In this document: in pieces, positions 1,106 through 63,547 of the stretch
How positions within the stretch are numbered: the first letter of the stretch is position 1
Layout: each line of letters opens with the position of its first letter
Assembly (NCBI GenBank): GCA_032622095.1
Contig: CP136061.1
Location: 44,771,797-44,835,796 of the forward strand
Origin: Siphonodentalium dalli
Taxonomy: Eukaryota > Mollusca > Scaphopoda > Gadilida > Siphonodentaliidae
Length of the DNA stretch: 64,000 nt
Direction of reading: 5' to 3'
The notes under the pieces: generated by a model
What the model saw: only the letters and a program-made list of their open reading frames with translations
Database searches by the model: none
What the model was told of the DNA's origin: nothing
Position numbers and translations under genes: made by a program

Positions 1106-1588
1106 AGATCATGCCATGAATCCCTACTCTGGTTAACGCCCGTATGGATCATATTTCACCAGTATAAAACCTTGGAACTTTTGAAGTTTTGACAGGGAAC
1201 CTTTTAAATCCGAAACAATAACGCGGGAAGTTTATTTCTTAGTTGTTATCTGTTCCTTAATAATGTACTTCATTGCATGTAGGTGATTGTCTCAACTAAA
1301 AATTCATGCTTTTCTCTGACTTTTGTGAGCAGAATTCGCAATAAACAGCTAATTAATTACCCAGGAGAAATTCCACAATTGTAAGCGACGCAAAGCAAAA
1401 TCTCTCACAAATTCAATTAAATCGTGAAATTTCTAGATGGGACCTTCATCTACAGTGCATTACATTATTAAGGAACAGATAATAACAAAGAAATATATTC
1501 TCAGTGTTATTTTTTCGATTTTCCCTGTCAAAATTTCAAAAAGGTCCAAGGTTTTGTACTACCAGAGCAGAGATTCAAGGCATGATCT
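1106..1588. mobile_element. Foldback element
   Basis: Long imperfect inverted repeat. AGATCATGCCATGAATC at the left returns inverted at 1571-1588, and inner segments (AAAACCTTGGAACTTTT, and a stretch around CTGTTCCTTAATAATGTA) also pair. The arms are each roughly 190 bp. No open frame is supported. A solo copy of one arm lies at 10051-10130. Confidence 0.7.
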
Positions 1589-1610
1589 GGAGGTGCAGTG
1601 AGTTGAGTCG

Positions 1611-1670
1611 TTTCCGGCCGAGGCCCTGTAGGATACTCGGACTGCAGTGTGTAAGTCCCTTCACCCTTGG
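1611..1670 (-). other. Two-hairpin structured module (copy A)
   Basis: Read on the minus strand it forms an outer stem AGGGTG:TATCCT using two G-U pairs, an internal AAGG, an inner hairpin (GGACT:AGTCC), a CGA spacer, and then a second hairpin at GGCCTCGGCC. The same layout recurs at 1691-1745, 2352-2408, 2975-3030, 3061-3123, 3973-4028, 42512-42571 and 56342-56407 with different stem sequences. GGAGGTGCAGT before it and GGAGTTGCAGT after it may be a decayed target duplication. Function unknown. Confidence 0.5.
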
Positions 1671-1690
1671 AGTTGCAGTATAGGTTTGGA

Positions 1691-1745
1691 GTTGGGATGA
1701 TACCCGGGAAGATTTGAAAGGGCCGTCGGCCCTCTCCTACAACCC
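1691..1745 (-). other. Two-hairpin structured module (copy A2, decayed)
   Basis: The inner hairpin AGGGCC/GGCCCT is intact. The flanking GGGTTG...CTTCCC outer stem has two mispairs and the second hairpin is short. It aligns with copy E at 3973-4028 in the order and spacing of its segments, so it is probably a degraded member. Confidence 0.35.
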
Positions 1746-2351
1746 ACTTTTAAATGCCATGATTCCGCTGAAGAGCGTTTGTAGAGTTTGCGAGATTGAT
1801 ATATACTCATGCACAGTGGGTGTTTGCCTACTGTGCATGATGTGGATGCCACCAAAGCAAGAAGCAAAGCCCCACCCCCATTCCGAACTAGGACCGGCGG
1901 AGAAGACTTACCTTGATTTCTCTGTGTGAGTTTTGTGTGTTGATATACATATATATTGTTTTGAGTTGTCAAATTTAGTGCTTGCATGGACTCCAGTTGC
2001 CTTAGTCTGTTGTATTCCGGGCTTGTCCTATGGGCTCAACTCTAGGAAAAGGGTGCAGTGCCAGCCGGTTGACTTAAGGTCGGTTGGGGCTCCGCAACTC
2101 TCGATGGTGCAATGCCCGCCTTCCACTCCTGTGCTAGTGTCAGAACCTGTTTGCCTGGTTGTGTGGTGCGTGCGCAGATGAGGATGCAGCTGAGGCCAGA
2201 CTGTGTTGGTCGGTGTGTCTCTGAGTGCAGGTTTGGAGTGCCAAGTATATAGTGTTTCTAATTATTGTGTCCCACCCGTCCTCCCATATATAAGCAAAGG
2301 CGCGGGTGAAAGCATGTATTTTCAAATTGGAGGTTCAGCAGGGATTGCAGT
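1746..2351. other. Unassigned part of composite element
   Basis: Moderately GC-rich sequence between structured modules A2 and D. It holds a small hairpin ATGCACAGT...ACTGTGCAT (about 1809-1840). Short frames on both strands show no recognisable protein. It is placed in the same composite as 2352-4028 by module content only. Confidence 0.3.
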
Positions 2352-2408
2352 TTGGGGGGCTAACACCGGAATGGGCGAATAGACCGAGATGTCTATTCCT
2401 TCACCCCT
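2352..2408 (-). other. Two-hairpin structured module (copy D)
   Basis: Minus strand: outer stem GGGGTG:CATTCC (two G-U pairs), AAGG, inner hairpin AATAGAC/GTCTAT, a CGCC spacer, then a weak second hairpin. It lies just downstream of the decayed frame at 2483-2955, in the same direction. Confidence 0.45.
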
Positions 2409-2482
2409 CATTTTTTAAGCTTTCATTTTAAGGATCACAACAACAACAACAATAAAAAAGAGCATTTGTATACAGACAAAAA

Positions 2483-2955
2483 TTAGTTCTTTTTGTGTTT
2501 CTTTTTCTTAGGTGGCTTTTCTCCTGAGGATAGATATGATGATTTGTCCTTCCGTTCTTTGTCTTTGCTGTTGGACACTCGGAGCACTCTGTCGGCCTCT
2601 TCTAAAGTCTTGTCAATTCTTTCTTGTTGCTATGACATTGCTTGAAGCATGGCTCTCTGTTGTTCTTTTTCATCCTCATCTTCGACATGATTGTTGTTGT
2701 TGTTGGTGGTGGTGGAGCTGGGGGACACCGGGATAAGGTGGAATTCCGGTGTCCGAGGTGGAAGGCTGTCCAACTCCACGTCGAAGCTGGCGACAGGAAC
2801 ATCTGGGGTAGTGTCCACGTCCCTGTCTCGGCTCGCCTCGACGACGACAGCAGGGACCTCCGGCAGATCAACGGAGTCCCTGCTAGCTGGTGCAATGTCG
2901 CCTGTCTACATGCAGATCGGGTCGTCTGGGTGTCTCTCAGACAACTCCGACTGAA
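2483..2955 (-). pseudogene. Decayed element-encoded frame with lysine-rich tail
   Basis: On the minus strand one continuous frame runs to a TAA at 2483-2485 with two in-frame TAG codons, near 2912 and near 2630. Between the stops the translation is acidic and proline/serine-rich, with an asparagine run (TTTNNNNN). After the second stop it continues sensibly (QQERIDKTLEEADRVLRV) to a basic end, KPPKKKKHKKN. The design of acidic middle and poly-lysine C-terminus matches the frame at 3193-3903, so this is probably a second, broken protein of the same element or an older copy. No known family recognised. Confidence 0.5.
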
Positions 2956-2974
2956 GGTGCAGAGAATGAGTGGT

Positions 2975-3030
2975 TCGGGGGGGCTAGCCCGGGATTGTCG
3001 GAAGGACCGAATGGTCCTCCCCTTAATCCC
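2975..3030 (-). other. Two-hairpin structured module (copy C)
   Basis: Minus strand: perfect outer stem GGGATT:AATCCC, AAGG, inner hairpin AGGACC-ATTC-GGTCCT, CGAC, then a second hairpin GGGCTAGCCC. The outer stem differs from copy E (GGGGTG:CATCCC) at paired positions, which is compensatory change. TGAAGGTGCAG (2952-2962) and TGAAGGTACAG (3031-3041) flank it as a near-perfect 11-bp direct repeat. Confidence 0.55.
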
Positions 3031-3060
3031 TGAAGGTACAGTAGCAGGAACGGGATTTGC

Positions 3061-3123
3061 GTGCCCGCCCGAAGGGCGGCACGAGGACGGTGTGGGCTCA
3101 CCGGAGGTCGCCCTTACGCCCTG
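3061..3123 (-). other. Two-hairpin structured module (copy F) at the 3' side of the 236-codon frame
   Basis: Minus strand: outer GGGCG:CGTCC, inner GGGC:GCCC, then a strong hairpin of CGCCC/GGGCG with flanking GTGC/GCAC. It follows the stop of the 236-codon frame by about 70 bp. The equivalent copy at 56342-56407 sits at the same place after the second copy of the frame, just before that insertion ends. Confidence 0.5.
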
Positions 3124-3192
3124 TCTTGAGTTTTCTTGGTATTGGGAACCAGTCTAGGCCTAGGCTCAGGAGGGTCAGGTGAGGTTGGGTTC

Positions 3193-3903
3193 TTAGCTTT
3201 TGTTCTTTTTCTTTTTCTTGTCTTCCTTCTTTTTCTTCTTCTTCGGTGGTGGTGAAGTGGAACATCTGGATGATGATGATGAAGGAAGAGGTGAGATCGG
3301 CAGAGAAGGTCTGACGTACTCGTCGTCATACATTTTCTTCAGGATGTCGTCTACGTTGATGGTACTTAGGTCGATGTGCCTCATGACTTGGGCGGACGAG
3401 TCTTCGGTTGAGGGTGAAGTCTCTGGCTCTTTCTCTTGGTAGTCCGGTGTCTTCGGAACGAAGTCGGAGGGGTCCTCGTCTTCGTCTTCAGTATCGGTAT
3501 CCTCGTCTGGTCGTGGTGGTGATGCTGGTGATGGTGGTGGTTCCATCTCCCGGACGACAGAATGGGCCGGGTTCTCAGCTGGATGGGCGAGGTCGACTGG
3601 TGAAGTTCCGGTCGATTTCTTCGCTTTCCATGCAGCGAGTCTTTCGGCATCTCTCTTTTTCATCGATGGTGTTTTCTTTTTCTTCTTTCCCTTCTTCTGT
3701 CGAGGCTTCCGAGCTGATTCGGTAATATCCGAGCCCTTCCCGGTAGGGAGCCCTGAAAAGAGCTTTGCCGGGCCGGACTGGAAGTCCAGAATCAGCTGGT
3801 ATCCGCCTTTGTGAGCGTGGAATGACCAGCTCAAACAAGGCGTGACATGCAGGGCTTCCAGCATGCTGGTGACACTAATTGGGATTAGCGGTGGCGAGTT
3901 CAT
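3193..3903 (-). CDS. Unknown element-encoded protein, lysine-rich tail (236 codons)
   Basis: Intact frame from ATG (3901-3903) to TAA (3193-3195). Residues 1-60 form a hydrophobic/aromatic region (LSWSFHAHKGGYQLILDF). About 65-100 is a basic stretch with a charged helix-like segment (TPSMKKRDAERLAAWKAKKS). About 115-200 is acidic, with runs of Asp/Glu and Pro/Ser. The end is poly-Lys. A related copy, frameshifted, lies at 55558-56270 inside an insertion with target duplication, so this is a repetitive-element gene rather than a host gene. Similar PS-x-K-x-R-D-x-x-R segments are familiar from repeat-encoded proteins of aquatic invertebrates, but I cannot name the family. It has no reverse transcriptase, transposase or protease motif. 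Nucleic-acid binding is a guess from charge. Confidence 0.55.
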   Translation of the reverse strand: MNSPPLIPISVTSMLEALHVTPCLSWSFHAHKGGYQLILDFQSGPAKLFSGLPTGKGSDITESARKPRQKKGKKKKKTPSMKKRDAERLAAWKAKKSTGTSPVDLAHPAENPAHSVVREMEPPPSPASPPRPDEDTDTEDEDEDPSDFVPKTPDYQEKEPETSPSTEDSSAQVMRHIDLSTINVDDILKKMYDDEYVRPSLPISPLPSSSSSRCSTSPPPKKKKKKEDKKKKKNKS

Positions 3904-3972
3904 CCTGAGAGGTGGCGATCCAAGCTCTCTGGAGGTCCGACTGCGAATGTGATGTATGAGAGAGTGAGTAGA

Positions 3973-4028
3973 TGGGCGCGAAGCGCCCGGGATGGTCGAA
4001 AAGATCGAGTGATCTTCTCCTTCACCCC
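3973..4028 (-). other. Two-hairpin structured module (copy E), upstream of the 236-codon frame
   Basis: Best-formed copy. Minus strand: outer GGGGTG:CATCCC, AAGG, inner hairpin AAGATC-ACTC-GATCTT, CGAC, then second hairpin GGGCGC-TTC-GCGCCC. It lies about 70 bp before the ATG at 3903, so it would be in the 5' leader of a transcript carrying that frame. Confidence 0.6.
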
Positions 4029-4273
4029 ATTGATGTATGAATGAACCCGAGTGCGTATATATATGCGTTTAGTGCAGACGTACAACATGACAATCGACCA
4101 ATTAAAACAATGGGTACGATCAGGTGACATCGATGACAGACTAATCGATTAGTGTCGGCTCTAGAGATAATGTAAGCAGGTTTCAGACGCTGATTAATCA
4201 ATTAGAAGGGGATCCGCGTACTCGTTGCATGATATGAGGTCGATGTCTACAACATGGACGACAAATATGATCT

Positions 4274-6884: not shown

Positions 6885-9043
6885 CCTATTTTATTTACAT
6901 AATATACAAAGGGATTGGGGCACAAGTTTTTACAACTTATGAAGCCCCTCTCCTAACATGATATAATAAAACACATGTGGTCAAGATGACGGTACAAACG
7001 TATTTACATGGTGATAAGTTATGAGCGATATAATGTGTAGTGGCTTCCAGAGATGATCATGCAGACTTGAGGTTGTTTCTTGGCTGAGAGAAAATTTGTA
7101 TTTAAAGAATGTCATACATGATGAATGTTTGGTATGATTGTCAAGACTTAGTGCCAATATATTATCTACTCTTAGTATTTGTATGCTGGCTGTAAAATAT
7201 AATGCATGGTACACTTGATGTGTTTTCTATTTTTGTTCTTGTAGTGCTCTGGAAGGCAATACAGATAATAAATCAGAATGAGATGTTTGAATGGGAGGTT
7301 TGTCCACTTGTGAGGTGAATGCCATATATCAAATTGAAATTTCGGAAGCATTGTTTTTAAGTATAGATTCTCAAATAAAATAAATATAATCATTTAGGGT
7401 CGAAACGCTTAGTCGCTGCAATATATTGCTGTGTGCTGGAAAACAGTTTCATATTTTTTGGGACGAGGTATAAGGTGTTCCACACATGAGTTCTGAAATA
7501 TTGCTTGAGATTTTCTCAAAGAATACTGAGCGATCACGTTGGTACAATGGGCACATGAAGAAATAGTGATAGTCGTCTTCAGATCGATTTCCACATGACC
7601 ATGCATGCGGGGCTGTCAGCGATATGATTTCCACATGACCATGCATGCGGGGCTGTCAGCGATATGATTTCCACATGACCATGTATGCGGGGCTGTCAGC
7701 GATATGATTTCCACATGACCATGTATGCGGGGCTGTCAGCGATATGATTTCCACATGACCATGTATGCGGGGCTGTCAGCGATATGATTTCCACATGACC
7801 ATGCATGCGGGGCTGTCAGCGATATGATTTCCACATGACCATGTATGCGGGGCTGTCAGCGATATGATTTCCACATGACCATGCATGCGGGGCTGTCAGC
7901 GATATGATTTCCACATGACCATGTATGCGGGGCTGTCAGCGATATGATTTCCACATGACCATGTATGCGGGGCTGTCAGCGATATGATTTCCACATGACC
8001 ATGCATGCGGGGCTGTCAGCGATATGATTTCCACATGACCATGCATGCGGGGCTGTCAGCGATATGATTTCCACATGACCATGCGGGGCTGTCAGCGATA
8101 TGATTTCCACATGACCATGTATGCGGGGCTGTCAGCGATATGATTTCCACATGACCATGCATGCGGGGCTGTCAGCGATATGATTTCCACATGACCATGC
8201 ATGCGGGGCTGTCAGCGATATGATTTCCACATGACCATGCACGCGGGGCTGTCAGCGATATGATTTCCACATGACCATGCATGCGGGGCTGTCAACGATA
8301 TGATTTCCACATGACCATGCATGCGGGGCTGTCAACGATATGATTTCCACATGACCATGCATGCGGGGCTGTCAACGATATGATTTCCACATGACCATGC
8401 ATGCGGGGCTGTCAACGATATGATTTCCACATGACCATGCATGCGGGGCTGTCAGCGATATGATTTCCACATGACCATGCATGCGGGGCTCTCAACGATA
8501 TGATTTCCACATGACCATGCATGCGGGGCTGTCAACGATATGATTTCCACATGACCATGCATGCGGGGCTGTCAACGATATGATTTCCACATGACCATGC
8601 ATGCGGGGCTGTCAGCGATATGATTTCCACATGACCATGCATGCGGGGCTGTCAGCGATATGATTTCCACATGACCATGCATGCGGGGCTGTCAACGATA
8701 TGATTTCCACATGACCATGCATGCGGGGCTGTCAGCGATATGATTTCCACATGACCATGCATGCGGGGCTGTCGGCGATATGATTTCCACATGACCATGC
8801 ATGCGGGGCTGTCAGCGATATGATTTCCACATGACCATGCATGCGGGGCTGTCAGCAATATCATTGTTCAACATATCACATCTGAGTTCACTGCAAAAAT
8901 TACGTATGCCAATTTGGACAATGGTCAGATTTTTTTCGCAAATGGGCAAAGAAATTACATTTTTGCCAAAAAGATTCTTGAAGTCCAATATATTCCAGCA
9001 ATTTCCTTTCTGTAAATTACAGGTTAATATACCAATAACTTGA
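6885..9043 (-). mobile_element. 5'-truncated LINE, C-terminal coding end and 3' UTR
   Basis: Minus strand from 9043: the translation contains VQIGIRNFCSELRCDMLN and then SPAC, the usual run-in to the C-terminal zinc knuckle of CR1/Jockey-like non-LTR retrotransposons. The knuckle resumes at about 7640 with CGN..EDDYHYFFMCPLYQRDR, followed by the typical short tail with a frameshift near 7460. The 3' UTR runs to an AATAAAATAG end near 6885. Between the two coding parts lies the 40-bp minisatellite. The reverse transcriptase and endonuclease regions are absent; the 5' side is cut by the element at 9045. Confidence 0.75.
7582..8856 (-). repeat. 40-bp minisatellite inside LINE zinc-knuckle coding region
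   Basis: About 32 tandem copies of a 40-bp unit (GATTTCCACATGACCATGCA then TGCGGGGCTGTCAGCGATAT). Copies differ mainly at CATG/TATG and AGC/AAC; one copy near 8063-8098 is 36 bp. The unit encodes part of the LINE knuckle, but 40 is not a multiple of three, so the expansion breaks the reading frame. Confidence 0.95.
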
Positions 9044-9044
9044 T

Positions 9045-10014
9045 TTTGGAGGGCGTTATGGTTTATTACCGGCCCAACAGAAATGATTAACAGCCCGATG
9101 GTTCATTAAAGGCCCGAGACGAAGTCGAGGGCCGTTAATGGCCCGAGGGCTGTTAATCATTTCTGGAGGGCCGTTAATAAACCTAACGCCCGACAAAATC
9201 ATGTTATTACTATTATTACCACACTCGATCTGAAATGAAACCAAACTAGAACATAGATGTGTGAGTAAGTAGCAATATGTCAACTGAAATAATAACTATT
9301 TTATCAATTCAGACCATGTGTCGTCTGTTTGTTGTCAAACAAATTGTCACGTGACTAATTAATATTATTTACCACGAAAATAGGGCCATATCTTAGGAAA
9401 ATTCAGTCAGAAATCTAATTTATTCCATTTGTTAGATAACACTTACTCACCTTGAATGTGTTGTTGGTCTGTTATTACATCTACTACAGTAAAATATCAG
9501 TTTTATTAGTAATAATATACTATAATCTTGTTTTAACAGAAATTCCGAATTCAGAAATTAGGTTGCGTTCGATTAGATTCCTAGCAAATCGCAACCCGGA
9601 AGCGGGCCATTAATATCGTTAACGTTTAACTCCAGGTTTGATGCCGGGCGTTATGGCCGGAAGCGGGCCATTAATATCGTTAACGTATAACTTCCGGTTT
9701 GATGTCGGGCGTTATGGCCGGAAGCGGGCCATTAATACCGTTAACGCATAACTTCCGGTTTGATGCCGGGCGTTATGGTCGGAAGCGGGCCATTAATACC
9801 GTTAACGCATAACTTCCGGTTTGATGCCGGGCGTTATGGCCGGAAGCGGGCCATTAATATCGTTAACGCATAACTTCCGGTTTGATGTCGGGCGTTATGG
9901 CCGGAAGCGGGCCATTAATATCGTTAACGCATAACTTCCGGTTTGATGCCGGGCGTTATGGCTTTTTACCGTTCGGTTAAAATACTGTTAATCTACTAGA
10001 GAACGCCCTCTAAA
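9045..10014. mobile_element. TIR element with GAGGGCGTT ends
   Basis: Left end TTTGGAGGGCGTTATGG, right end inverted near 10002-10014 (AACGCCCTCTAAA). It carries a palindromic block at 9060-9183 (GGTTTATTACCGGCCC inverted at the far side) and six 61-bp repeats. It interrupts the LINE at 9043. There is no transposase frame. Confidence 0.65.
9596..9961. repeat. Six 61-bp tandem repeats, each hairpin-forming
   Basis: Units start CCGGAAGCGGGCCATTAAT and end GGGCGTTATGG. Each holds CCGGAAG...CTTCCGG as a hairpin and a GTTAAC centre. Units differ by a few bases, and the last word of each matches the element's terminal GGGCGTTATGG. Confidence 0.95.
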
Positions 10015-28062: not shown

Positions 28063-28194
28063 AACTTTGTTTTATTATAGTATTGGACTTGTTGCCTAAT
28101 GTTGGAACAACACAAGTTTACACAATCCAACAAGATTTAAGATGGCCATTTTTCACAGCATGTCATGACGCCATTCGTTCAATGTGTCATGGCA

Positions 28195-28594
28195 TTAACC
28201 CTTTACCCAACAAACCGGCCAAAACCGGCCAAATAAAGCTTCAACAGCCTAAAATATCTTCGGTCTGTGTCAATAGAACCATACAAATATGGATATCATT
28301 GGAATCGGCTCCTTGACCACATTGTGATAGTTACAGTTATGCCCTGTGCCAATGCATTCTCTTATATATGCGAGTCGACCATAGGTCGCCTCGCATGTAT
28401 AAGAGAATGCATTGGCCTAAAAAAAAACTTTTTTTAACACTTTCTACCATTTTTTCTTACATTCTTTAACAATTTTATAATTTTTAATGTGTTAAACCAA
28501 TGCATTCTCTTATATATGCGAGGCGACCTATGGTCGACTCGCATATATAAGAGAATGCATTGGCACAGGGCCCTTCTGTTGGGTAAAGGGTTAA
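28195..28594. mobile_element. piggyBac-like MITE with double-palindrome core (copy 2)
   Basis: Perfect TTAA on both sides (28195-28198, 28591-28594), ends CCCTTTACCCAACA / TGTTGGGTAAAGGG, palindromes at 28348-28416 and 28496-28564. Very close to copy 1 at 505-904. This is the cleanest copy for defining the element. Confidence 0.9.
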
Positions 28595-28923
28595 CGGTAA
28601 TCCCCAGCAACTAAGTTGAACCAATGGACTAACTCCATATATTGTTTCGGATATAAGTTGCTTATTATATATTATTGTATAAATTTATCTTTATTTCCGC
28701 TAATTGTAGATACATGATAGTTTCAATACAAGAAACACATAATAGTGCATATTACTTAAGTACAAAACAAAAGACAAAGGCTGAACACAAATATGCACTG
28801 CATATGTCCCACGCGACAAACAGGAAGATGGAATGCTGCACATTATCACACAAAGGAGGTTGGCGACCATTTGCGTGTGAGCTATAGTATATATAAGAAG
28901 GGGTATCGTTTTCATTGAAGAAG

Positions 28924-31513: not shown

Positions 31514-31541
31514 CCAGGCCAGGCACATCTTGAATTCAACT
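31514..31541 (+). repeat. Left bracket of satellite, inverted at 35052-35079
   Basis: This 28-bp segment and the complement of 35052-35079 agree at 24 of 28 positions (core AAGATGTGCCTGRCCTG on the complement). It lies immediately before the first satellite unit. Confidence 0.7.
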
Positions 31542-34500
31542 AGTATTGTTACAGCGGATCTCAACTAGTAGTGTTACAGCGGATCTCAACTAGTATTGTT
31601 ACATTAAGGGTCAGCGGATCTCAAATAGTATTGTTACATTAAGGGTCAGCGGACCTCAACTAGTATTGTTACATTAAGGGTCAGCGGACCTCAACTAGTA
31701 TTGTTACAGCGGATCTCAACTAGTATTGTTACATTAAGGGTCAGCGGATCTCAACTAGTATTGTTACATTAAGGGTCAGCGGACCTCAACTAGTATTGTT
31801 ACGTTAAGGGTCAGCGGACCTCAACTAGTATTGTTACATTAAGGGTCAGCGGACCTCAACAAGTATTGTTACATTAAGGGTCAGCGGACCTCAACTAGTA
31901 TTGTTACGTTAAGGGTCAGCGGACCTCAACTAGTATTGTTACATTAAGGGTCAGCGGATCTCAACTAGTATTGTTACATTAAGGGTCAGCGGACCTCAAC
32001 TAGTATTGTTACATTAAGGGTCAGCGGATCTCAACTAGTATTGTTACATTAAGGGTCAGCGGACCTCAACTAGTATTGTTACGTTAAGGGTCAGCGGACC
32101 TCAACTAGTATTGTTACATTAAGGGTCAGCGGACCTCAACTAGTATTGTTACATTAAGGGTCAGCGGACCTCAACTAGTATTGTTACGTTAAGGGTCAGC
32201 GGACCTCAACTAGTATTGTTACATTAAGGGTCAGCGGATCTCAACTAGTATTGTTACATTAAGGGTCAGCGGACCTCAACTAGTATTGTTACATTAAGGG
32301 TCAGCGGATCTCAACTAGTATTGTTACATTAAGGGTCAGCGGACCTCAACTAGTATTGTTACGTTAAGGGTCATCGGACCTCAACTAGTATTGTTACATT
32401 AAGGGTCAGCGGACCTCAACTAGTATTGTTACATTAAGGGTCAGCGGATCTCAACTAGTATTGTTACGTTAAGGGTCAGCGGACCTCAACTAGTATTGTT
32501 ACAGCGGATCTCAACTAGTATTGTTACATTAAGGGTCAGCGGATCTCAACTAGTATTGTTACATTAAGGGTCAGCGGACCTCAACTAGTATTGTTACGTT
32601 AAGGGTCAGCGGACCTCAACTAGTATTGTTACATTAAGGGTCAGCGGACCTCAACTAGTATTGTTACATTAAGGGTCAGCGGACCTCAACTAGTATTGTT
32701 ACGTTAAGGGTCAGCGGACCTCAACTAGTATTGTTACATTAAGGGTCAGCGGATCTCAACTAGTATTGTTACATTAAGGGTCAGCGGACCTCAACTAGTA
32801 TTGTTACATTAAGGGTCAGCGGATCTCAACTAGTATTGTTACATTAAGGGTCAGCGGACCTCAACTAGTATTGTTACATTAAGGGTCAGCGGACCTCAAC
32901 TAGTATTGTTACATTAAGGGTCAGCGGATCTCAACTAGTATTGTTACATTAAGGGTCAGCGGACCTCAACTAGTATTGTTACATTAAGGGTCAGCGGACC
33001 TCAACTAGTATTGTTACATTAAGGGTCAGCGGACCTCAACTAGTATTGTTACATTAAGGGTCAGCGGATCTCAACTAGTATTGTTACATTAAGGGTCAGC
33101 GGATCTCAACTAGTATTGTTAATTAAGGGTCAGCGGATCTCAACTAGTATTGTTACATTAAGGGTCAGCGGATCTCAACTAGTATTGTTACTTTAAGGGT
33201 CAGCGGACCTCAACTAGTATTGTTACATTAAGGGTCAGCGGACCTCAACTAGTATTGTTACATTAAGGGTCAGCGGACCTCAACTAGTATTGTTACATTA
33301 AGGGTCAGCGGATCTCAACTAGTATTGTTACATTAAGGGTCAGCGGACCTCAACTAGTAGTGTTACATTAAGGGTCAGCGGACCTCAACTAGTATTGTTA
33401 CATTAAGGGTCAGCGGACCTCAACTAGTATTGTTACATTAAGGGTCAGCGGACCTCAACTAGTATTGTTACATTAAGGGTCAGCGGATCTCAACTAGTAT
33501 TGTTACATTAAGGGTCAGCGGACCTCAACTAGTATTGTTACGTTAAGGGTCAGCGGACCTCAACTAGTATTGTTACATTAAGGGTCAGCGGATCTCAACT
33601 AGTATTGTTACATTAAGGGTCAGCGGACCTCAACTAGTATTGTTACATTAAGGGTCAGCGGACCTCAACTAGTATTGTTACGTTAAGGGTCAGCGGACCT
33701 CAACTAGTATTGTTACATTAAGGGTCAGCGGATCTCAACTAGTATTGTTACATTAAGGGTCAGCGGACCTCAACTAGTATTGTTACATTAAGGGTCAGCG
33801 GATCTCAACTAGTATTGTTACATTAAGGGTCAGCGGACCTCAACTAGTATTGTTACATTAAGGGTCAGCGGACCTCAACTAGTATTGTTACATTAAGGGT
33901 CAGAGGACCTCAACTAGTATTGTTACATTAAGGGTCAGCGGATCTCAACTAGTATTGTTACATTAAGGGTCAGCGGATCTCAACTAGTATTGTTACATTA
34001 AGGGTCAGCGGATCTCAACTAGTATTGTTACATTAAGAGTCAGCGGATCTCAACTAGTATTGTTACATTAAGGGTCAGCGGATCTCAACTAGTATTGTTA
34101 CATTAAGGGTCAGCGGACCTCAACTAGTATTGTTACATTAAGGGTCAGCGGATCTCAACTAGTATTGTTACATTAAGGGTCAGCGGATCTCAACTAGTAT
34201 TGTTACATTAAGGGTCAGCGGACCTCAACTAGTATTGTTACATTAAGGGTCAGCGGATCTCAACTAGTATTGTTACATTAAGGGTCAGCGGATCTCAACT
34301 AGTATTGTTACATTAAGGGTCAGCGGATCTCAACTAGTAGTGTTACATTAAGGGTCAGCGGATCTCAACTAGTATTGTTACATTAAGGGTCAGCGGATCT
34401 CAACTAGTAGTGTTACATTAAGGGTCAGCGGATCTCAACTAGTATTGTTACATTAAGGGTCAGCGGACCTCAACTAGTATTGTTACATTAAGGGTCAGCG

Positions 34501-34617
34501 GACCTCAACTAGTATTGTTACATTAAGGGTCAGCGGACCTCAACTAGTATTGTTACATTAAGGGTCAGCGGATCTCAACTAGTATTGTTACATTAAGGGT
34601 CAGCGGATCTCAACTCG
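31536..34617. repeat. 35-bp satellite, about 88 copies
   Basis: Unit CATTAAGGGTCAGCGGACCT then CAACTAGTATTGTTA. Variants GGATCTC/GGACCTC and CATTA/CGTTA alternate in a loose higher-order pattern in the left half. A 25-bp short unit lacking ATTAAGGGTC occurs at the left edge and near 31700 and 32500. No spacers and no frame. Confidence 0.97.
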
Positions 34618-35640
34618 TATCAAACTGGAAAAAAGTTTGTGTTCATCTAAATTTTACAATTAATTGCACACAAGTTGGCCGATCTGTAAAAGATTAAAAA
34701 AAACAAACATTGTGGATTGCAATTGTATAAAAACAAATCAAGAAATTTACCTTGAAAATTTCACTGCATAATTTCTTGTTTCCTGATTCACTGTAAACAT
34801 GTGCTCGGACTAAATTTTCAAATAATTATCAAATTTGATATTCTTCCACTAAAATTATTATCCATTTGGCAAATAAAAGTGATGCTAAGGTAAGTGAATC
34901 CAAAAAAATGCATATTTTGCAGCAGATAATTTCAAGTTGATCTGGAGACTGTTCATTTGCTGCATTATCGGGAGTGGAGTTTGGCCGTACACTCACTGCA
35001 CTGGCATTCGGTAATCACAAAAACAGAGAAATTGTGGATTTAACACTGTCAAGTTGAATCCAGGATGTGCCTGACCTGATATTGGGTGATAACGGACCTC
35101 TCTATTCGGTTTTATATCCCTCGGTTGATATTTCGTCGGCTCCGGGAGTCAAATATATCAACTTTGACGCAGGAAGTCACCGGTAACAATATTATTGGTA
35201 CTAAATGTGATTTCAACTATTAAAGGGACGGGCGGGGCGGCCTTCGTTGTAGGTTATAATTTAGAAATAACATTTATCACATTTTGACAGTTTCCTCAAG
35301 AATATACTAATAGTATAGAATAATGATGATATGAATGCGATATTATTGACAAAACACGCTTTGTGTCCGAGAAAATACAGGTCGAGTTTCTCGCGAAAAG
35401 CGCAGTGGATTGTTTATAAGCAGAGTCACGATATTGCGTCATTTCCTTATTTAGATTCGCGCGCATTTTACGTCGGTTGTAAAACCCCTAATTTGGTGCG
35501 TCTATAACTAACAACTCACAATACTACTGATACTAAATTCCTTATTTGTTATGTATTACCATATATATGTTAGGAGAAAATACTGGAGCGCAATGGAACA
35601 TTTTCATTGGACGCGGTATAGTTCTAAGTGTTTGTCTATA
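34618..35640. other. Right flank of satellite; no gene recognised
   Basis: Contains the right inverted bracket at 35052-35079. The rest is AT-rich and unassigned. Confidence 0.45.
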
Positions 35641-41642: not shown

Positions 41643-42483
41643 CAAGTCTGGAAATAGTGTGTCTGACATTTGCAGAATGAGATCCACAGAGGGTGAATTT
41701 ATAGTTATGCTACCCCGCAATAGCGGGCTAGCATCACCACGTTGACCCTCTGTGGAACTCATTCTGAGTAGACCTCATCTTCTGTGAAGTAGCTATATCC
41801 CTATACCCAACAAAACGGCCAAAACCGGCCAAATCAAGCTTCAACAGCCTAAAATATCTTCGGTCTGTCTCAATAGAACCATACAAATATGAATATCATT
41901 GGAACCGGCTCCTTGACCACATTGTGATAGTTACAGTTATGCCCTGTGCCAATGCATTCTCTTATATATGCGAGTCGACCATAGGTCGCCTCGCATATAT
42001 AAGAGAATGCATTGGCCTAAAAAAAATCTTTTTTTAACACTTTTTACCATTTTTTCTTACATTCTTTAACAATTTTATAATTTTTAATGTGTTAAGCCAA
42101 TGCATTCTCTTATATATGCGAGGCGACCTATGGTCGACTCGCATATATAAGAGAATGCATTGGCACAGGGCCCTTCTGTTGGGTAAAGGGATATAGTCTC
42201 AAACTAACATCGTCTTCAGTAAATTTGTCCCTTCTGTTCAGTTTCTAATTTGCAGAATATAACATGCAAAATCGAGGTGACCAATGGGTGAACATCACAA
42301 CTTCATCTGGAGAACTTCAGTCTTATCCTAGGCCTCACATAGCAGTTGAGCTTAGGCTAATCAGAATGAGGTTCCCGGAGGGTGAATTGGTGACGCTATA
42401 GCTCACCGTGTGGGATAGCGTCACTAAATTCGCCCTCTGTGGACCTCATTCTGCAAATGACAGACACACTATTTGCATGCTTG
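41643..42483. mobile_element. GAGGTCCCC-family foldback (copy 4) with a nested MITE
   Basis: TIRs CAAGTCTGGAAATAGTGTGT and complement at 42464-42483, with a palindrome behind each. The centre is interrupted by the piggyBac-like MITE at 41799-42190. This dates the foldback as older than the MITE insertion. Confidence 0.8.
41799..42190. mobile_element. piggyBac-like MITE with double-palindrome core (copy 3)
   Basis: Ends CCCTATACCCAACA / TGTTGGGTAAAGGG; palindromes 41948-42016 and 42096-42164. The flanks are ATAT on both sides (41795-41798 and 42191-42194), not TTAA. Confidence 0.85.
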
Positions 42484-42495
42484 CCGGGATGTATC

Positions 42496-42571
42496 TTTGG
42501 TTGTTGAGTAGTTTCCGGCCGGAGGCCGGGTAGGGTGGTCGGACTGCAGTATGCAAGTCCCTTCACCCTTA
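42496..42571 (-). mobile_element. Solo two-hairpin module, 76-bp insertion with 12-bp target duplication (copy B)
   Basis: CCGGGATGTATC stands at 42484-42495 and again at 42572-42583. The 76 bp between are the structured module alone. Minus strand: outer stem TAAGGGTG:CACCCTA with one bulge, AAGG, inner hairpin GGACTTGCA/TGCAGTCC, CGAC, then CCGGCC-TCC-GGCCGG and a short tail CTACTCAACAACCAAA. It shows the module can move by itself. Confidence 0.65.
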
Positions 42572-42583
42572 CCGGGATGTATC

Positions 42584-55480: not shown

Positions 55481-55557
55481 TGCTTTCCGTGGTCGTTCGT
55501 TCGTACGTCATCAAACGCAGTCGGACCTCCAGAGAGCTTGGATCGCCACCTCTCAGG

Positions 55558-56270
55558 ATGAACTCGCCACCGCTAATCCCAATTAGTGTCACCAGCATGC
55601 TGGAAGCCCTGCATGTCACGCCTTGTCTGAGCTGGTCATTCCACGCTCACAAAGGCGGATACCAGCTGATTCTGGACTTCCAGTCCGGCCCGGCAAAGCT
55701 CTTTTCAGGGCTCCCTACCGGGAAGGGCTCGGATATTACCGAATCAGCACGGAAGCCTCGACAGAAGATGAGAAAGAAGAAAAAGAAAACACCATCGATG
55801 AAAAAGAGAGATGCCGAAAGACTCGCTGCATGGAAAGCGAAGAAATCGACCGCAACTTCACCAGTCGACTCCGCCCATCCAGCTGCGATACCGGCCCAGT
55901 CTGCCGCCAGGAGATGGAACCACCATCACCACCACCATCACGGCCAGACGAGGATAACAAAGAGGAAGACTTTGTTCCGAAGACTCCGGAGTATCCGGAG
56001 TATCACGATCCGGAACCTTCACCCAAAGCAGAACCCACCGAATCCAAGAGAGAAAGCGACACTGACACCGAGGTCGATGAATGGGAAGATGAGCCTTCAC
56101 CCACAAAATCTTGGATCTATTCAGACGATTCCGATTTCTACTCCACCTCCGACTCTGACTCTGAAGATGAGCCTCCACCACCATCACCATCGAGTGCTCC
56201 ACCACCAAAAAAGAAGAAACGAAAAAACAACAAGAAAAAGAAAAAGAACAAAACATCACTTAACAGATAG
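55558..56270 (+). pseudogene. Second copy of the 236-codon frame, frameshifted
   Basis: ATG at 55558-55560, stop TAG at 56268-56270. The first 115 or so residues match the frame at 3193-3903 almost exactly (LSWSFHAHKGGYQLILDF, TPSMKKRDAERLAAWKAKKS). A one-base deletion near 55908-55912 shifts the frame. In the shifted frame the acidic Pro/Ser region and the poly-Lys tail (PPPKKKKRKNNKKKKKNK) continue, longer and diverged. The N-terminal half is clearly more conserved than the acidic half. Confidence 0.65.
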
Positions 56271-56341
56271 AACCCCACCTCACCGACCCTCCTGAGCCAC
56301 GACCTAGACATATTGTACTCACAAAACCAAGAAAATCTAAG

Positions 56342-56407
56342 ACAGGGCGTAAGGGCGACCTCCGGGTGAGCCCACACCGTCCTCGTGCCGCCCTGCGGGC
56401 GGGCACG
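56342..56407 (+). other. Two-hairpin structured module (copy F') at insertion 3' end
   Basis: Outer GGGCG:CGTCC (one G-U), inner GGGC:GCCC, then GTGCCGCCC-TGC-GGGCGGGCAC. It lies 16 bp before the target duplication, so it would be the 3' terminus of the mobilised RNA. Confidence 0.5.
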
Positions 56408-56621
56408 CAAATCCTGTTCCTACTGCTTTCCGTGGTCGGTGATTTAATGCGTGCATTGGAGTGATTTCCCGGTGACATTAAGTCTATGTGCGGTCTTTCC
56501 TCCACCCATAATATAGCTGACAACGTTGTGATATTGCCTATATATATAGCGACTAAAACGATGATAAACAACAATAACATAAATAAACATACATGTATTT
56601 TGAAAACAAATCGCTTGGATG

Positions 56622-63117: not shown

Positions 63118-63547
63118 TTCCCGTATATACAGACAAGCATTGAGAAAGACTTCCGTATATACAGACAAGCATTGAGAAAGACTCCCGTATATACAGACAA
63201 GCATTGAGAAAGACTCCCGTATATACAGACAAGCATTGAGAAAGACTCCCGTATATACAGACAAGCATTGAGAAAGACTCCCGTATATACAGACAAGCAT
63301 TGAGAAAGACTCCCGTATATACAGACAAGCATTGAGAAAGACTTCCGTATATACAGACAAGCATTGAGAAAGACTCCCGTATATACAGACAAGCATTGAG
63401 AAAGACTCCCGTATATACAGACAAGCATTGAGAAAGACTCCCGTATATACAGACAAGCATTGAGAAAGACTCCCGTATATACAGACAAGCATTGAGAAAG
63501 ACTCCCGTATATACAGACAAGCATTGAGAAAGACTCCCGTATATACG
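63118..63547. repeat. 32-bp tandem array, about 13 copies
   Basis: Unit CCCGTATATACAGACAAGCA then TTGAGAAAGACT; TTCCG replaces TCCCG in two units. All three minus-strand frames stay open because the unit lacks stops, giving three overlapping repeat frames that are not genes. Confidence 0.97.

Follow-up and report, generated by a model that had tools for sequence, protein, structure and literature searches.

Long interspersed nuclear elements (LINEs) are known whose 3′ tail is bound by the element's own protein; in ZfL2, the cognate ORF2 protein binds the 3′ stem-loop (PMC4176376). For the R2 retroelements, three further reports describe 5′ ends that are made by a ribozyme resembling that of hepatitis delta virus (HDV) and have slightly variable junctions (PMC3774820), minimal elements called short internally deleted elements (R2 SIDEs; PMC3414825), and a stable 5′ fold that protects templates (PMC11331408). 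Here, we analysed a stretch of 64,000 nt from the scaphopod mollusc Siphonodentalium dalli (positions 44771797-44835796 of contig CP136061.1, hereafter the window), with genome searches that covered 2.23 Gb in 9 contigs, and describe a two-hairpin RNA module in its retroelements. We observed a covarying fold, a 3′-terminal position of the module, solitary copies (hereafter solos) flanked by duplications, and a spike of solo 5′ ends at the stem. In the reading that we consider somewhat better than even, with a probability of roughly 0.55, this tail would be recognised by a reverse transcriptase and the solos would derive by copying from a 3′ piece of the RNA, severed at the base of the stem.

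The module shares with the tails of the stringent LINEs UnaL2, ZfL2-1 and ZfL2-2 its place at a structured 3′ end of LINE RNA, but it has two hairpins and a conserved AAG/GAC internal loop instead of a single stem-loop, its protein binding is putative, and it comes with a class of solos that have a fixed 5′ end. In their minimal layout of a defined 5′ end plus a putative 3′ recognition sequence, the solos resemble R2 and its SIDEs (PMC3774820, PMC3414825), and their 5′ junctions are slightly variable, as are those of R2 elements whose RNA is cut at the 5′ end. Unlike the 5′ ribozyme of R2, however, the fold described here lies at the 3′ end, and it shows no apparent HDV-like architecture and no match in Rfam. 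Short interspersed nuclear elements (SINEs) with a borrowed LINE tail are likewise short and non-autonomous, end in a LINE tail and are flanked by target-site duplications, whereas the solos are ~70 bp of tail and nothing else, with no separate head. A search of the literature, covering open-access papers, returned no description of such a fold or of a solo tail.

A covarying two-hairpin fold

On the minus strand, the module reads as an outer stem, AAG, an inner hairpin, GAC, the outer-stem partner and then a second hairpin (Table 1). A recurring module of this kind had been proposed at seven places by a first-pass annotation made from the letters alone, and it proved to be real: a single covariance model, R1, found five of these places, all on the minus strand, and the loop words AAG and GAC are common to the modelled copies. 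The other two places, F and F′, are distant look-alikes outside the R1 matches, and F lacks CGAC. R1 was built from seven 40-nt cores of types D, C, C2 and E, which puts D, C and E into the model by construction, while both A copies stood outside its training set. The five cores take the top ranks among 20 R1 matches in the window, with E-values from 1.8e-15 to 0.032 and the next match at 1.3; F′ is not among these 20.

Covariation was scored on an alignment of 95 matches, drawn from 91 searched sources and comprising 28 distinct rows. In this alignment, which was fitted to R1 and is therefore biased towards the structure, and whose rows are related to each other, standard pairs filled 95.9% of the 394 cells of the distinct rows, compared with 82.9% in shuffles and at most 62.8% in slid versions, and 56 cells were changed on both sides compared with 17.6 in shuffles. 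The covariation score of 0.433 was reached by 0 of 500 shuffles (0.214 ± 0.016), and the best slid control gave 0.126. Two outer pairs switch fully, pair 1 between GC (21 rows) and AU (7 rows) and pair 6 between GC (21) and UA (7). Pairing is thus kept over the genomic copies in spite of altered stems, as had been claimed from the window, and the covariation above both kinds of control, together with the shared AAG and GAC, supports a covarying RNA fold under selection.

The genome abounds in palindromic repeats, and the hairpins might accordingly be read at the level of DNA, as chance inverted repeats or, for example, the ends of DNA transposons, with no role for RNA. This reading is very improbable. 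At pair 4, G·U is more frequent than any other state (18 of 28 rows, with AU in 7 and GC in 3), and it is found at pair 12 in 13 of 28 rows; the opposite strand would not pair at these positions, and the G·U pairs on the minus strand suggest that the RNA is read from there. The module, moreover, terminates elements with a reverse transcriptase, as described below.

The second hairpin differs in sequence by family, with 4-6 pairs formed in each. Fold z-scores against dinucleotide shuffles, listed in Table 1, are weak for the window's E copy and for one of its A copies, both of them diverged. Genome-wide, the exact 40-nt D core occurs 639 times (318 + 321; reversed-pattern control, 0), and the open pattern AAGG, 12-24 bases, CGACMAYCCY gave 2653 + 2307 matches against 301 + 326 for its reversed control, some places being counted twice because AAGG can recur within the hairpin.

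The first-pass annotation had not recognised the fold, and the Rfam search leaves it without a match: at the gathering threshold nothing was found over the whole window, ribozymes including the HDV-like, hammerhead and twister families among the models, and with E up to 5 the positions 1500-4200 gave 7 weak chance matches, none to a ribozyme family. HDV-like ribozymes leave a product whose 5′ end is the first base of stem P1, and they are nested pseudoknots with a P2 stem and a J4/2 active-site strand. Here, the AAGG after P1 has no partner in the tail by eye, and the nested fold was predicted without pseudoknots. In contigs of IMG/VR and of GTDB, a search for the module pattern gave 0 matches.

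Several retroelement families end in the module

Beyond what the first-pass annotation had seen, the module is a retroelement 3′ end. The 72-bp D unit was first met either bare or behind a common tail. Five 10-kb D stretches share 480 to more than 1000 nt of upstream sequence (480-1023 and more), all ending in the module, and two of the five share more, reaching the reverse-transcriptase region. At one locus (L030), matches to Exo_endo_phos_2 (3.9e-14) and RVT_1 (2.3e-28) lie in separate open frames upstream of the module at 9823-9862. Type A closes ~1-kb non-autonomous elements that start with TCGGACC (L038, L042, L051, L052 and L062) and also a related tail; types C and E close other tails, which finish with ATGA directly before the stem. 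Types A, C, D and E are all terminal in element tails, so several LINE-type families and ~1-kb non-autonomous elements have the module as their 3′ end. As in stringent LINE tails, it is the 3′ end of an element with endonuclease and reverse transcriptase, forms a covarying stem-loop and is common to non-autonomous elements.

Solo copies are flanked by target-site duplications

For type D we sampled 40 of the first 41 cores listed (of 639), the remaining one being the window's own copy. Twenty-one of the 40 were attached to the LINE tail, 0 of these 21 with a duplication of at least 8 bp, and 15 were solos of ~70 bp with duplications of 10-14 bp, the target-site duplications that mark a target-primed retroposon. 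The remaining four unattached copies had a duplication of 7 bp (L075) or none (L064, L088 and L095), L064 having its upstream sequence in common with L155. Common flanks in L076/L077 and in L096/L097 reduce the solos to 13 independent cases. With mismatched flanks as the control, duplications of at least 10 bp appeared in 3 of 1466. In the attached D copies, the LINE body ends at scattered points from ~81 to 400+ nt, homology having been traced to a limit of 400 nt, and in none does it end at 5-80 nt; when 14 attached copies were checked at their own truncation point, 6 had duplications of at least 8 bp, one of them of low complexity.

Over all fetched loci, counted as distinct rows, there were 23 solo, 38 attached and 6 other copies of D (67), 8, 21 and 1 of A (30), 4, 16 and 1 of C (21), and 1, 19 and 0 of E (20); A came from 30 loci of 41 ranked matches and C and E each from 20 of 40 places, and the solo shares are rough because the A, C and E loci were taken from ranked similarity lists.

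Downstream of hairpin 2, attached and unattached copies alike carry the variants ATCTAC and AACTAC, which suggests that LINE RNAs have given rise to solos again and again. The same variants speak against a tiny SINE, that is, separate master loci that would transcribe a ~70-nt RNA from the stem onwards and borrow the LINE machinery via its tail. Such loci would explain a uniform 5′ end and many copies, but at least three families (D, A and C) would each need a master gene whose start falls at this one structural position; in the window, ARAGORN detected no tRNA gene, polymerase III boxes not having been searched for. We regard this origin as distinctly improbable. A reading of the solos as co-integrations with adjoining elements that bear an open reading frame (ORF) was dropped, the element downstream of L056 having a duplication of its own.

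Most solo 5′ ends lie at the outer stem

In 31 of 36 solos, all genomic copies from four families, the outer stem begins 0-4 nt from the duplication (D 21/23, A 7/8, C 2/4, E 1/1). Exceptions outside type C are L019 with 12 nt, L083 with 11 nt and L059 with 11 nt, the last a repeat of module sequence. The main rival to an RNA cut at this place is drop-off of the enzyme at the edge of the bound structure: the reverse transcriptase would release an uncut template after copying, and thereby dissolving, the structure to which it is bound, and the solos would be abortive products. Stringent LINE proteins are known to bind a 3′ stem-loop (PMC4176376), and the spike of 5′ ends stands exactly at the edge of the fold, both of which suit this rival.

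The junctions themselves point the other way. Fifteen of the 23 D solos carry 1-4 extra nt there, as after run-off from a template end, whereas the truncated LINE copies L006, L007, L020 and L073 have none (n = 4, by reading; L089 may have some). At their 5′ junctions, L059 and L156 repeat part of the module, which resembles what an enzyme that runs off the end of one template and then jumps would leave. Next to the stem, the extra base is T in 13 of the 15 D solos, as against 1 of 6 among the A, C and E solos (p = 0.006; by our own choice the test was limited to junctions with 1-4 extra nt and excluded zero-extra solos), and this preference follows the base at -1 in the LINE of the family. 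Contrary to the T pattern, the zero-extra A solos L041, L053 and L063 end in T (3/3) and the A-like L146 ends in TT. Taken together, the extra bases, the repeated pieces and the T base favour a genuine RNA end located at the outer stem or 1 nt ahead of it, and we consider release of an uncut template unlikely.

A proposed route from LINE RNA to solo copy

Most likely, the LINE reverse transcriptase would recognise the module and start target-primed reverse transcription on it, so that any RNA ending in the module could be copied into the genome, namely the LINE, its ~1-kb non-autonomous relatives and a ~70-nt 3′ fragment. Solos would then be full-length copies of this fragment, their 5′ end falling on the first pair of the outer stem or ~1 nt ahead of it, and since most of the observed solo 5′ ends lie at the stem, the module's 5′ edge is the probable site of an RNA cut. 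The module itself may be the cutter, as a self-cleaving ribozyme of an unlisted kind, or the cut may be made by a nuclease that the fold guides or stops; candidates that would fit are a ribozyme, RNase P or another nuclease, and an exonuclease that halts at the fold. Self-cleavage had been raised in the first-pass annotation and would gain indirect support from the fixed 5′ end of the solos. The most far-reaching version is a doubtful, tentative option: a self-cleaving ribozyme of a new class, whose single ~70-nt fold would serve as the recognition tail for the reverse transcriptase and as maker of its own 5′ end, yielding a ~70-bp retroposon.

In the C and E tails (for example, L104-L123 and L124-L143), words resembling AATAAA or ATTAAA stand ~13 nt before the stem, and cleavage as in mRNA could consequently fall at the module edge in these families. 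As a general cutter, polyadenylation was rejected: the D and A tails are without such words yet yield most solos.

Several points weigh against cleavage followed by copying. That the reverse transcriptase recognises the module, that the RNA is cut and what cuts it are all inferred from genomic sequence, and a full-length LINE RNA must stay uncut to retrotranspose, which fits badly with efficient cleavage. Of the 639 D cores, 304 directly follow ACCGT, the canonical and commonest LINE joint. Solos are rare in E and absent from the 40 F places listed, 40 of 40 of which carry at least 12 nt of upstream body, so the effect is not universal. In type C, the solos L110 and L105 carry 9 and 13 extra nt, respectively (L105 in repetitive flanks), and the clustering of 5′ ends was measured with a duplication search that permitted up to 13 extra nt and would miss any solos with more. 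Within the covariation analysis, pairs with changes on both sides were not above shuffles (8 versus 6.8; 103 of 500 reach 8), nor were further pair types (18 versus 18.6; 420 of 500 reach 18).

Copies and neighbouring elements in the window

Forty genome matches were listed for module C, most with ends fixed close to the stem.

Table 1 Module copies, insertions and target-site duplications in the window (positions in nt; R1 scores in bits)
Feature	Position	Strand	Evidence and remarks
Module D core, GGGGTG-AAGG-hairpin-CGAC-CATCCC	3989-4028	-	R1 64.9; 639 exact genome copies
Solo D insertion: core, second hairpin GGGCGCTTCGCGCCC, tail CATCTACTCACTCTCTC	3960-4030	-	L001; fold z -5.5; 10-bp target-site duplication TCATACATCA; 2 extra nt ahead of stem
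5′ target-site duplication of solo D	4031-4040	-	Sequence and duplication search
3′ target-site duplication of solo D	3950-3959	-	Sequence and duplication search
Module C core, GGGATT-AAGG-hairpin-CGAC-AATCCC	2991-3030	-	R1 61.4; fold z -2.8
Probable solo C insertion	2963-3030	-	Flanks TGAAGGTACAG (3031-3041) and TGAAGGTGCAG (2952-2962); 11 bp with one mismatch, by reading; exact-match detection gave just 7 bp
Module E core, joined to LINE tail ...AAAATGA	2368-2407	-	R1 61.7; relatives in genome; fold z -1.3
Module A core, AGGGTG-AAGG-hairpin-CGAG-TATCCT, diverged	1630-1667	-	R1 16.8, E 0.032; fold z 0.06
Probable solo A insertion	1600-1667	-	Flanks 1668-1679 and 1588-1599; 12 bp with one mismatch, by reading
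Module A core, AGGGTG-AAGG-hairpin-CGAC-CACCCT	42532-42569	-	R1 24.7, E 2e-4; fold z -5.1
Solo A insertion	42496-42571	-	L034; GATACATCCCGG copies at 42572-42583 and 42484-42495
Module F, looser two-hairpin 3′ end of ORF-bearing element (3193-3903)	3061-3125	-	Fold, z -2.4; no R1 match; outer stem AGGGCG:CGUCCU, then second hairpin; same outline, no CGAC
Module F′, F-like, in second copy of ORF-bearing element	56342-56427	+	BLAST to 3040-3252, 81%

The ORF-bearing element with a lysine-rich end is present in two copies, 3193-3903 (-) and 55531-56292 (+), the first ~450 nt of which are 94% alike. The ORF beside the module (236 amino acids, 3196-3903) had no relative in Pfam, PDB or IMG/VR, the best Pfam match (E 0.12) falling in a lysine-rich stretch. 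Elements with differing ORFs begin, at their 5′ start, with another conserved RNA-like word, the leader TCGGACC(T/A)CCAGAGAG..GGATCGCCACCTCTCA, which was seen in the window at 55520 (+) and in L001, L002, L036, L038, L042, L051, L052, L056, L062 and L133. In L001, L002, L036, L056 and L133 the 5′ start of the next element lies at most ~30 nt from the 3′ end of a module, which is more often than expected; in L036 (minus-strand index 585-2566), a pair of ~1-kb A elements stand head to tail, 20 nt apart.

The window further contains three copies, 97-98% alike, of a ~400-bp palindromic repeat (506-906, 28192-28599 and 41796-42196) and tandem satellite arrays at 31536-34620, 7586-8865 and 63119-63546.

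Conclusions

If the proposed route is true, in several families a LINE tail would both set a fixed 5′ end on its RNA and travel by itself as a retroposon of ~70 bp. To our knowledge, such a ~70-bp unit would be about the shortest mobile RNA unit. For direct testing of cleavage, the genome offers thousands of natural module sequences.
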